Of a DNA stretch of 64,000 nt, positions 8,590-20,479 are shown in pieces. The notes under the pieces are model-generated. The model worked only from the letters and a program-made list of their open reading frames with translations, ran no database searches and was not told the DNA's origin. The DNA comes from Deltaproteobacteria bacterium (GTDB lineage Bacteria; UBA10199; DSSB01; JACPFA01): assembly GCA_016183235.1 (NCBI GenBank), contig JACPFA010000027.1:1-64000 (forward strand), read 5' to 3'. The number at the start of each line of letters is the position of its first letter. Position 1 is the stretch's first letter. The translations under genes and the position numbers were made by a program.

Positions 8590-11259
8590 TTGAGTAAAAA
8601 ATACGTCTATTTTTTTGGCAGTGGGGCTGCCGAAGGCCGCGCGGATATGAAAAATATTTTGGGTGGCAAGGGTGCTAATTTAGCTGAAATGAATCTTTTA
8701 GGCATCCCCGTGCCCCCTGGTTTTACTATTACCACCGAGGTTTGTGTTGAGTTTTATAAAAATAACCATGTCTATCCAAAAGAATTAGAATCTCAAGTGG
8801 CCAGCAATTTAAAATCCATTGAAAAATCTTTGGGCAAAAAGTTTGGTGATCCCCAAAACCCTTTGCTAGTTTCAGTGCGTTCTGGGGCCAGGGCCAGCAT
8901 GCCTGGCATGATGGATACGATTCTTAATTTGGGTTTGAACGATGCTGTGGCCGAAGGGTGGGCGAAAAAAACTGGCAATGCCAGGTTTGTGTTAGATAGT
9001 TATCGGCGTTTTATTCAAATGTATTCCGATGTTGTTTTAAATATTTCAGGTGATGAATTTGAATCGGCCCTTGAATCATTAAAACGCAAACGCGGGGTGC
9101 ATTTAGATACCGAGCTTGAGGCAGAAGACTGGCAGCAACTCATTGCAACCTACAAAGATATCGTTTTACAAAAAACCCAAAAAGCTTTTCCTCAAGATCC
9201 TAAAGTTCAACTTTGGGGGGCCATTGGCGCGGTATTTCAGAGTTGGATGAATAAACGGGCCATTGAGTATCGGCGGATTCATTCGATTCCCGAAGATTGG
9301 GGTACAGCGGTTAATGTTCAGGCCATGGTATTTGGCAATATGGGCGAAGATTGTGCCACCGGGGTTGCCTTTACACGAGATCCTTCCACCGGGGCCAAGA
9401 TATTTTTTGGTGAATATCTTATTAATGCTCAAGGTGAAGATGTGGTGGCAGGCATCCGAACCCCACAGCCGATTAATATTGAAGGGAAGCAGCATGGGGG
9501 CAACGATTTGCCCTCGATGGAAGAGACCTTGCCTAAGTGCTATCAAACCTTGGTTTCCATTTATCAAAAACTCGAACACCATTATCGCGACATGCAAGAT
9601 ATTGAATTTACCATCGAGAATCACAAGGTTTGGATGTTGCAGACCCGCAATGGCAAGCGTACGGCCGCTGCCGCCATCAAGATTGCGGTCGATATGGTGA
9701 AAGAGGGGCTTATCGATAAACGCACGGCAATTTTGCGAATCGATCCCAATCAAATCGATCAACTTTTACACCCCACCTTAGACCCTAATGTTGAGAAAAA
9801 GGTGATTGCCAAAGGCCTGCCCGCTTCACCGGGTGCTGCCACCGGCCAAGTGGTTTTTTCGGCCGAAGATGCGCAGCGCCTCAATGAATTAGGTCATCGT
9901 GTCATTTTGGTTCGTCTAGAAACCTCTCCCGAAGATATCCATGGCATGAATGTGTCAGAAGGGATTTTAACGGCTCGCGGTGGGATGACTTCTCATGCCG
10001 CGGTGGTGGCGCGAGGGATGGGTAAAACTTGTGTGGTGGGTTGTGGTGAATTAGACATTGAAGAAAAGAAACAGCTCTTTCAAGTACAGGGTGTGGTGGT
10101 TAAAAAAGGCGATTTTATTACCTTGAATGGTTCAACCGGTGAGGTGATGCTAGGTGAGGTTCCCACCATTCCGCCTCAGTTGACCGGAGAATTTAAAGAG
10201 TTCATGGTGTGGGTGGATGAACAGCGTAGGCTCAAAGTCCGCACCAATGCTGATTCTCCAGGTGATGCCAGGGTAGGGCGAGAGTTTGGGGCAGAGGGCA
10301 TTGGCCTATGTCGCACCGAGCATATGTTTTTTGAAGGGGATAGGATCGACACCGTTCGGCAAATGATCTTGGCCTCTGATGTTGAAGAGCGCAAACGCGC
10401 CTTAGCCAAAATCTTGCCCATGCAAAAACAAGATTTCAAAGGCATCTTTCGAGCCATGAAAGGATTGCCGGTTACCATTCGTTTGCTCGATCCGCCGCTT
10501 CACGAATTTTTACCCCACACCGATTCAGAAATTTTAGAGATTTCTAAAAAGTTAGATATTCCCCCTGATAAACTGCGTAGCAAGTTAGAAAGTTTGCGTG
10601 AATTTAACCCCATGTTGGGGCATCGCGGTTGTCGCTTGGGCATTACCTATCCTGAGATTTATGAAATGCAGGTTCAGGCCATTATGGAAGCCGCTTGTGA
10701 ATTGGTCGAGCAAGAAAGTTTTTCGATTATTCCTGAGATCATGATTCCTTTGGTGGGGCATGTGCGCGAGCTCGAAGTGATGCATCAAATGGTGGATAAG
10801 GTTTGTAAAGAGGTCATGAATCGTAAAAAGATTCCGTTGGAATATTTGATTGGCACCATGATCGAATTGCCCAGGGCCGCTCTCACGGCTGATCGGATTG
10901 CCGAATTTGCAGAATTTTTCAGCTTTGGTACCAACGATCTTACTCAAACCACCTTTGGTTTTTCCCGTGATGATGCCTCTAAGTTTCTACCCATGTATAT
11001 CGATAAAAAGATTTTGACCGTTGATCCCTTTGTGGCGCTCGATCAAGAGGGGGTTGGTAAGTTGATTGCCATGGCTGTCGAATTAGGTCGCAAAACCAGG
11101 CCCAATATTAAAGTGGGTATTTGTGGCGAACACGGTGGTGAACCCAGTTCGGTGATTTTTTGTCATAAGATTGGGTTGAACTATGTTAGCTGTTCTCCTT
11201 ACCGAGTCCCTGTGGCAAGGCTGGCTGCAGCCCAAGCAGTTTTAATGGAGGCAAAATAG
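8590..11259 (+). CDS. ppdK: Pyruvate, phosphate dikinase
   Basis: Interconverts ATP + phosphate + pyruvate and AMP + PPi + phosphoenolpyruvate through a phosphohistidine. 889 aa, normal for the bacterial enzyme. N-terminal ATP-grasp domain (GGKGANLAEM, RSGARASMPGMMDTILNLGLN), swivelling domain with catalytic His in GGMTSHAAVVARGMGK, and C-terminal TIM barrel with PEP-site GICGEHGGEPSSV containing the catalytic Cys. The start is TTG at 8590, after GAGG at 8581-8584. The next gene's start follows the stop by 1 bp, so the two may be cotranscribed. Very secure. Confidence 0.97.
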   Translation: MSKKYVYFFGSGAAEGRADMKNILGGKGANLAEMNLLGIPVPPGFTITTEVCVEFYKNNHVYPKELESQVASNLKSIEKSLGKKFGDPQNPLLVSVRSGARASMPGMMDTILNLGLNDAVAEGWAKKTGNARFVLDSYRRFIQMYSDVVLNISGDEFESALESLKRKRGVHLDTELEAEDWQQLIATYKDIVLQKTQKAFPQDPKVQLWGAIGAVFQSWMNKRAIEYRRIHSIPEDWGTAVNVQAMVFGNMGEDCATGVAFTRDPSTGAKIFFGEYLINAQGEDVVAGIRTPQPINIEGKQHGGNDLPSMEETLPKCYQTLVSIYQKLEHHYRDMQDIEFTIENHKVWMLQTRNGKRTAAAAIKIAVDMVKEGLIDKRTAILRIDPNQIDQLLHPTLDPNVEKKVIAKGLPASPGAATGQVVFSAEDAQRLNELGHRVILVRLETSPEDIHGMNVSEGILTARGGMTSHAAVVARGMGKTCVVGCGELDIEEKKQLFQVQGVVVKKGDFITLNGSTGEVMLGEVPTIPPQLTGEFKEFMVWVDEQRRLKVRTNADSPGDARVGREFGAEGIGLCRTEHMFFEGDRIDTVRQMILASDVEERKRALAKILPMQKQDFKGIFRAMKGLPVTIRLLDPPLHEFLPHTDSEILEISKKLDIPPDKLRSKLESLREFNPMLGHRGCRLGITYPEIYEMQVQAIMEAACELVEQESFSIIPEIMIPLVGHVRELEVMHQMVDKVCKEVMNRKKIPLEYLIGTMIELPRAALTADRIAEFAEFFSFGTNDLTQTTFGFSRDDASKFLPMYIDKKILTVDPFVALDQEGVGKLIAMAVELGRKTRPNIKVGICGEHGGEPSSVIFCHKIGLNYVSCSPYRVPVARLAAAQAVLMEAK

Positions 11260-11260
11260 T

Positions 11261-12481
11261 TTGAAAAAGTTTTTTTTAATCATTAGAATGAATGTCATTG
11301 CGAGCGCAAGCGTGGCAATCTTCTTTTCTACGCTGCTAGGTTGTGCAGACCCCTCTATCTTTGTGTCGATCCCTCTAACGACCAATCCACCGGTATTGGC
11401 GAGCCCAATCTCTTTCGTCATTAATGCAGCGACGACAAGGGGGTACCTGGTTAATTCGAATAATAGTGTGATTTATAGTAATGGTTCAGTGATCATTTTT
11501 GACATGACCAACCCGACCGATCCCACGGCGTTGGCCGCGGTGAGCATCCCTAGCTTTTCCGGGCAGGTGATTTTAGATTCTACCCGTGGTTATCTTTATA
11601 TTCCTAATCGATTGAGCGATGACCGAGAAGATAACGATGATCAAATCGTTCGAGTCAATATCGATGAAGCTTCGAACTCTTACCTAACGGTTGAAACTTT
11701 TGCTTCGGGCGCTAATCCCTTTGGTGCAGCCTTTGATGGCAGTGATGCCTTATTTGTAGCGGGCACCGGGGCGGTGTTTCGTTACGATGTCGATGATCTT
11801 ACGGGTTATTCCAAAGTTACGACGAGTTTTACCACCAATGAAGGTGATGCAGTATCCGGCAGTCAAACTCGCGAAGTGGCCTTGCGTACCGGTAGCGATA
11901 ATCTTTATGTCACCAATCGTGCAGATCAATTGATGATCTTAAGTGTGAGCGAATTTACCGCTCCTTCGGCCAATGCCATTACCGATTTAGGTGCGGGGCC
12001 GGTGCAATATGTTATCTCGGGAACTTCTTCCACCCGTGGCCTTGCCGTCGATGCTACCAATAGCGATATTTACGTGGTAGAAGGAGGTAATGCCCCCATT
12101 TTAAAAGTATTGAACGATGCTAGCCTCAGTGCCAATAGCGGCGCCCCCATCGAGATTAATGCAGGCACCTTGTTGATTGGCAGTGTGCCCTTGGGTTCAG
12201 ATCCCAGTGAGATTGTTCTCGATATTACCAACAATCGTGCCTATGTGGCCAACACGGGCAACGATAGTATTTCTGTGATCGACACCAACCTGTTGGTGGA
12301 GCTTGCCCGAATCAGTGTGGCCAGCGATCTTCCGAGTGGCATGGCAGCTGGGGACGAACCCTTTGGTTTGGCGTTGGCCAGTCTTGGCGGCACGACCTAC
12401 CTCTACGTCACCAATTTAGTAACGCATAATGTTACGATCATTAATACTTCAACACTTGCTATCGTGGGAAATATCCCTTAA
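11261..12481 (+). CDS. Beta-propeller (YVTN-type) lipoprotein with repeat-derived signal peptide
   Basis: 406 aa, starting at TTG 11261 with GGAGG at 11247-11251. Signal MKKFFLIIRMNVIASASVAI then FFSTLLGC, lipobox Cys28. Most of the hydrophobic stretch (VIASASVAIFF) is the translation of a dispersed palindromic repeat at 11293-11328. The body consists of ~45-residue blades with motifs such as TRGYLYIPNR, NNRAYVANTGNDSISVIDT and LYVTNLVTHNVTIINT, typical of YVTN/NHL surface propellers. Likely outer-membrane-anchored binding or scaffold protein; ligand unknown. Directly after ppdK and followed by a paralogue. Confidence 0.8.
   Translation: MKKFFLIIRMNVIASASVAIFFSTLLGCADPSIFVSIPLTTNPPVLASPISFVINAATTRGYLVNSNNSVIYSNGSVIIFDMTNPTDPTALAAVSIPSFSGQVILDSTRGYLYIPNRLSDDREDNDDQIVRVNIDEASNSYLTVETFASGANPFGAAFDGSDALFVAGTGAVFRYDVDDLTGYSKVTTSFTTNEGDAVSGSQTREVALRTGSDNLYVTNRADQLMILSVSEFTAPSANAITDLGAGPVQYVISGTSSTRGLAVDATNSDIYVVEGGNAPILKVLNDASLSANSGAPIEINAGTLLIGSVPLGSDPSEIVLDITNNRAYVANTGNDSISVIDTNLLVELARISVASDLPSGMAAGDEPFGLALASLGGTTYLYVTNLVTHNVTIINTSTLAIVGNIP
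11293..11328 (+). repeat. 'tgtcattgcgagc' repeat inside a coding region
   Basis: tgtcattgcgagcgcaagcg followed by tggcaatcttcttttct is a clean copy of the left half of the dispersed repeat. It lies entirely within the signal-peptide codons of the lipoprotein gene and is read in frame as VIASASVAIFF. Confidence 0.85.
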
Positions 12482-12493
12482 AGATGCAATCCA

Positions 12494-12533
12494 TGTCATC
12501 CCCGCCCCTGCCTACGCAGGGGCGGGGATGACA
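12494..12533. repeat. Short 'tgtcatyccc' palindrome
   Basis: A 40 bp perfect-looking hairpin: tgtcatccccgcccctgcct and its partner ending ggcggggatgaca. It occupies the short gap between the two beta-propeller lipoprotein genes. Confidence 0.8.
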
Positions 12534-12558
12534 TGATAGCCGAGCAATCTTCTAAATT

Positions 12559-20417: not shown

Positions 20418-20479
20418 TGTCATTGCGAGCGGTGTCATCCTCGCGAAGGCGGGGATCCATGATGGAGAAGCAATCTTCC
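20418..20479. repeat. Nested repeat: 'tgtcatyccc' element inside a 'tgtcattgcgagc' element
   Basis: tgtcattgcgagcg is interrupted by gtgtcatcctcgcgaaggcg continuing to gggatccatgatgg, after which the outer repeat resumes with agaagcaatcttcc. The outer copy is split at the same place as in other nested copies in the window (34395, 38262, 41098). Confidence 0.75.

Follow-up and report, generated by a model that had tools for sequence, protein, structure and literature searches.

Probable take-over of a lipoprotein signal-peptide core by a short dispersed repeat

How does a short dispersed repeat come to encode the hydrophobic core of an export signal: does it create the signal, or does it settle in one that was already there? 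The question is raised by a gene at positions 11261–12481 of the forward strand of the stretch analysed here (64,000 nucleotides from a Deltaproteobacteria bacterium, assembly GCA_016183235.1, contig JACPFA010000027.1, positions 1 to 64,000, hereafter the window), an open reading frame (ORF) for 406 amino acids with a TTG start and a stop codon at 12479–12481, lying directly 3' of ppdK. Its product is predicted from its sequence to be exported and lipidated, and its N-terminus reads MKKFFLIIRMN-VIASASVAIFF-STLLGC, i.e. MKKFFLIIRMN-VIASASVAIFFS-TLLGC, the middle part being encoded by a unit that resembles repetitive extragenic palindromic (REP) sequences. The best explanation, to which we give a probability of roughly 85%, is that a solo unit of about 38 nt with a GCAAGC loop settled in an already existing lipoprotein signal peptide, whose core it took over.

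The repeat belongs to an abundant family: the 2.61-Mb genome contains GTCATTGCGAGC 242 times in exact form and a reversed control pattern not once, and TGTCATTGCGAGC with at most two mismatches is found at 23 sites in the window against 1.24 expected, a number that no shuffle attains. The copy in the lipoprotein gene occupies positions 11293–11330 of the forward strand, has the structure TGTCATTGCGAGC-GCAAGCGTG-GCAATC-TTCTTTTCTA, and supplies codons V12 to S23 (VIASASVAIFFS), today's hydrophobic core. Read directly from the sequence, positions 11293–11320 are TGTCATTGCGAGCGCAAGCGTGGCAATC, followed at 11321–11330 by the tail TTCTTTTCTA. When 37 further copies with this class of tail are profiled, conservation begins at an invariant T before GTC (37/37 copies, here position 11293) and ends with the tail consensus TTC(C/T)(T/A)TTTTA, so that the unit measures about 38 nt and the tail TTCTTTTCTA belongs to the repeat. 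An earlier note on this DNA had reported a repeat copy read in frame as VIASASVAIFF between MKKFFLIIRMN and LLGC, and this reading is confirmed for a unit slightly longer than the 11293–11328 given there.

Is the peptide truly derived from the repeat, or is it native and merely repeat-like, by chance or convergence? Signal peptides are rich in alanine, valine, isoleucine and leucine, and the repeat reads in this way in two of its six frames; the probability of mere resemblance is nevertheless close to nil, since the 27-nt core of the window copy is found again, identical at 27 of 27 nt, at C38:14413 (contig:position), and its tail conforms to the consensus of the family. Moreover, the aligned orthologues, in which the same peptide encoded without nucleotide similarity to the repeat had been proposed as a sign of coincidence, do not have the peptide. 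The core corresponds to nine codons and is hydrophobic in one frame per strand (VIASASVAI and IASLALAM).

Translation of the repeat depends on the start of the gene. A Shine-Dalgarno sequence GGAGG, read from the sequence at 11247–11251 of the forward strand, is separated by a 9-nt spacer from the TTG at 11261, and the n-region of the signal peptide (MKKFFLIIRMN, codons 1–11, positions 11261–11293) contains a KKF that aligns with the orthologues; the lipobox L-L-G-C lies at 11333–11344. The first ATG (11288) is also upstream of the repeat, has no Shine-Dalgarno sequence and would leave an n-region without lysine or arginine. A start at the GTG at 11312, inside the repeat, would give only MAIFFSTLLGC, without positive charge, and the sole candidate start between the repeat and the Cys28 codon is a CTG. 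As no start 3' of the repeat would yield a usable signal peptide, the repeat is translated, provided that the lipoprotein is made.

Of 39 other genomes from the order and class, 29 have a match to the lipoprotein; the N-termini were read for about 20 of these 29, and seven orthologues were aligned with the window protein (eight sequences). All seven have an ordinary signal peptide without the repeat, with its cysteine at residue 15–22 (for example MRSLKKLLLAASLLFLSAC, MKAFKKFILTFVILFSATSC and MLKKITLIFLFLSSC), and the others read by eye agree; the cysteine, Cys28 in the window protein, is invariant in all eight aligned sequences. Opposite the window repeat the orthologues show a gap of about 10 columns, and the native n-region (KKF-) and the native end (-LLGC) flank the insert. 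Since repeat-free orthologue signal peptides end at the same cysteine, the signal peptide and its lipobox are older than the repeat.

These orthologues, spread across the order and the class, also bear on the proposal of the earlier note that the repeat created the signal peptide, in which case a formerly cytoplasmic or unexported protein would have gained export de novo. What favours such an origin is that the hydrophobic run becomes too short once the repeat is cut out exactly: literal removal yields MKKFFLIIRMNTLLGC, whose longest uncharged run is 5 residues. A PS51257-type lipoprotein rule (K/R within the first 7 residues, an uncharged stretch, a lipobox and a cysteine at 15–35) accepts the peptide with the repeat (Cys28) and rejects it after excision. 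This makes the present h-region repeat-encoded. Export itself predates the repeat, as the repeat-free lipoprotein signals of the orthologues indicate, and de novo creation is therefore very improbable. The earlier note was thus right in that the h-region derives from the repeat and that literal excision leaves too few hydrophobic residues, and not borne out in tracing the export signal to it; FFLII rejoined directly to FFSTLLGC is a strong signal peptide, and an ancestor near that form is plausible.

According to the favoured take-over, a lipoprotein signal peptide was already encoded when a REP-like unit entered its DNA in frame. Its native ends, the n-region (MKKFF..) and the lipobox (LLGC), would have been retained, and the old core would have joined the n-region, leaving the repeat to serve as the working h-region. 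FFLII in the n-region is probably a remnant of the former h-region, and R9-M10-N11 may either belong to the native sequence or have changed later; insertion, rather than gene conversion, is our inference for the arrival of the repeat. The insertion would be tolerated because its frame gives the uncharged hydrophobic VIASASVAIFF and because signal cores are constrained in hydrophobicity, not in sequence.

Could the repeat rather act as a 5' regulatory hairpin of the mRNA, controlling translation or stability, with an incidental coding role? A role in post-transcriptional control has been proposed for REPs close to 5' ends (PMC3733652), and repeats stand immediately before the start codon of two orthologues at the ppdK–lipoprotein junction, a GCAATGAC-type unit in genome G031 (L042) and a different unit, GTCATTCCCGCGAAGGCGGGAATCC, in genome G014 (L046). 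The window copy, however, folds no better than shuffles (z 0.32 as DNA and 0.48 as RNA), which leaves this role improbable; its complementary ends ATTGC..GCAAT pair over about 5 bp including AT, and the inner part is mismatched. The junction is a recurrent landing place for repeats, G031 and G014 standing for two other families.

The lipoprotein is one of at least seven proteins of this genome whose signal peptides carry the repeat, a genome-wide scan for the repeat in other exported proteins, as suggested in the earlier note, having returned six more. The frame of the lipoprotein (forward, VIASASVAIFF) recurs in a TPR protein of contig C26 (MKRSLFNIGVIASASEAIFLLFFLFLPPQLARA, with a Pfam domain), and the reverse frame is used in a TPM-domain protein of contig C38 (KKKIATLALAMTLLFIPQFVHA, KIATLALAMT, with a Pfam domain) and in a 95-aa putative periplasmic protein (MKIASLALAMTLFFCGANLQA, C23:22416, L221). 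In the remaining proteins the repeat lies in the n-region in another frame: a beta-propeller-like protein (contig C15), TolB (contig C25, an inverted dimer, with a Pfam domain) and an SLT lytic transglycosylase (contig C41, a dimer, with a Pfam domain). The h-region is repeat-made in three of the seven (the lipoprotein of the window contig, C27, and the C38 and C23 proteins), and in the other four a native h-region is still present once the repeat is taken away. For the C23 protein, the repeat together with its tail can be read to give the start ATG, the lysine and the hydrophobic core (MKIASLALAMT, with ATG-AAG from the tail); as far as its sequence can tell, this protein would come nearest to a signal peptide whose very start is repeat-made. 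In TolB orthologues the signal peptides are plain, about 22–24 residues long (MKRRLSLALFAFLLLLPLSSQAA-IYILIDQF), and lack the insert of about 22 residues, which confirms the insertion in the C25 protein. Two TPM-domain orthologues, L335 of genome G005 (VPPLNLRGGQGAF) and L337 of genome G018 (CHCEDPEQSRRGRSNL), seem to have other repeats within their signal peptides or directly ahead of them, hinting that repeats in signal peptides reach beyond one genome or one repeat.

Do signal peptides receive more than their share? A census by split-pattern enumeration covered 238 distinct copies of the 242, with flanks scored for coding and in-gene events sorted by a home-made codon score, by eye and with Pfam. 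It gave about 24 in-frame insertion events in genes (about 10 internal, about 7 at C-termini and 7 in signal peptides), where at most one would be expected in signal peptides. The probability of at least 7 in 24 is about 5e-6 if signal peptides are assumed to make up 3% of coding sequence and about 1e-4 at 5%, a crude upper bound for this share in the window being 2.4%. The loop GCAAGC is present in 5 of the 7 signal-peptide copies and in 3 of the 231 others (Fisher P 2e-7), and, with respect to the hydrophobicity of the best frame, GCAAGC forms stand close to the top of the 62 loop types. These observations fit a survival filter, in which a repeat lasts in a signal peptide only where its frame and loop read hydrophobic, or basic in the n-region; the hydrophobicity that makes the lipoprotein insertion tolerable would equally account for 7 of about 24 insertions lying in signal peptides and for the most hydrophobic loops being found there. 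They suggest that loosely constrained signal peptides are a favoured place for repeats surviving inside genes.

Has the hydrophobic form been selected beyond mere tolerance, as a module kept or spread as an h-region in both orientations? Five of the eight GCAAGC copies are in signal peptides, forward in C27 and C26, reverse in C38 and C23, and in the n-region in C15, and the loop is rare outside signal peptides. Yet a pure survival filter acting on random insertions, or mutation of the loop after insertion, yields the same pattern, and a search of 45 other genomes of the class for the GCAAGC form gave six copies, none in signal peptides and two inside large ORFs, so that the loop association is not replicated in other genomes. 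Such selection is unlikely; slightly more probable, though still doubtful, is a wider reading in which signal peptides are a preferred in-gene sink for REP-like repeats and the hydrophobic GCAAGC form is a selected, ready-made core recoding several unrelated export signals.

Several points weigh against the take-over and the bias attached to it. The closest relatives compared are of the same order, and the pre-insertion sequence is not among them. MKKFFLIIRMNTLLGC is a poor signal, which implies either that codons beside the repeat were altered too on insertion or that R9 is a later change. For four of the seven proteins the repeat is in or beside the n-region, where misassignment of the start codon is conceivable. 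Finally, the numbers are indicative, as the hypothesis was drawn from the same data and the sorting relied on a simple codon score and on the eye.

The nearest precedent is the RU-2 or YPAL repeat, a 168-bp element that forms codons 1–30 of the 144-aa Yersinia protein YPO1552, in its signal peptide, relatives of which have unrelated signal peptides without the repeat (Delihas 2007, PMC2759123; PMC2229807). The ppdK-linked lipoprotein is alike in having a repeat in its signal peptide and repeat-free relatives. It differs in that a 38-nt solo unit is lodged between the native n-region and the lipobox of a lipoprotein, and in that seven signal peptides of one genome carry the repeat, whereas YPO1552 is one striking case. 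In-gene repeats have precedents in Rickettsia and in further REP-rich genomes, and the Rickettsia palindromic elements are likewise short palindromes that sit in the reading frame of conserved genes and are tolerated there; the likeness lies in the mode of insertion, and the present case concerns a non-Rickettsia genome, shorter units, a strong share of signal peptides and a core that is repeat-encoded.

A third comparison is with CGTC-tagged REPs, which have a CGTC or TGTC tag, a stem of 8–9 bp with the complementary AT first, and mostly, not always, a CCA tail (Di Nocera et al. 2013, PMC3733652). The present repeat shares a TGTC tag at one end, AT-first complementary ends, dispersed copies that are mostly intergenic with some intragenic, and inverted dimers, inverted pairs being common at spacings of 60–70 nt (e.g. 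C3:27970/28037). In contrast, the window copy pairs over about 5 bp and then mismatches, and repeat tails consist of a C then TTCNTTTTTA or TCACCGG.. in place of CCA; given the short complementary stretch and the lack of a CCA tail, the repeat was not filed as a member of this class. A literature search on the repeat motif found nothing related, and no description of a strong signal-peptide bias of repeat insertions was found in the literature searched. As far as this search goes, two things are new: a take-over, supported by orthologues, of the core of a lipoprotein signal, and the clustering of insertions in the signal peptides of a single genome. The lipoprotein offers a clean, orthologue-supported case in which a mobile repeat has captured the working core of a signal for export. 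It also gives a testable rule, by which selfish repeats would persist in genes according to how hydrophobic their frame and loop are. Should the bias extend to other repeat-rich genomes, signal peptides would be a natural route from non-coding repeats into protein.

A candidate for mobilization is also present. A single Y1_Tnp gene (IS200/RAYT-like) is intact in this genome; located at C16:12320-12646 (L056 1456-1956), it has the repeat on both sides, about 45 nt and 7 nt away, and is possibly the transposase for TGTC/CGTC-type repeats, in contrast to a survey of CGTC units in which no transposase was flanked by them (PMC3733652). Its REP_Tyr_transpos score of 22 is below the cut-off of 80, and its HUH motif reads QGYH, the first histidine apparently being lost, so the protein may no longer act.

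Upstream of the lipoprotein gene, the conserved neighbour at 8590–11259 of the forward strand is an ORF taken to be ppdK (pyruvate phosphate dikinase); the end of its frame, encoding the ppdK C-terminal sequence, is readable directly upstream of the lipoprotein orthologue in many relatives. The mature part of the lipoprotein gives weak beta-propeller matches in NCBIfam, of which TIGR02276 exceeds its cut-off, and no family was matched in Pfam. After its stop codon, at 12494–12553 of the window, lies a second repeat type, GTCATCCCCGC..GCGGGGATGACA, also present at 20418, 38262 and 41098 and elsewhere nested within the loop of the TGTCATTGCGAGC repeat.

Among the other in-gene events, internal in-frame insertions, which resemble Rickettsia palindromic elements in lying within conserved proteins, are located at C1:36065 (L208), C41:27283 (L260), C13:66853 (L189), C16:63281-63303 (L219/L220), C41:6167 and 6566 (L132) and C31:57747-57821 (L146); the proteins concerned include agmatine deiminase-like, GH3 enzyme, MMPL, nucleotidyltransferase, MbnB-like and AAA proteins (Pfam/NCBIfam). 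Several apparent N-terminal overlaps, in nuoH-, etfB-, gcvT- and atpC-like genes, were discarded, the repeat there lying in the 5' leader, ahead of the true start codon. Long ORFs with several repeat insertions lie at C31:54382-57821 and C41:6167-29753, and these two contigs look unusually tolerant of repeat insertions.
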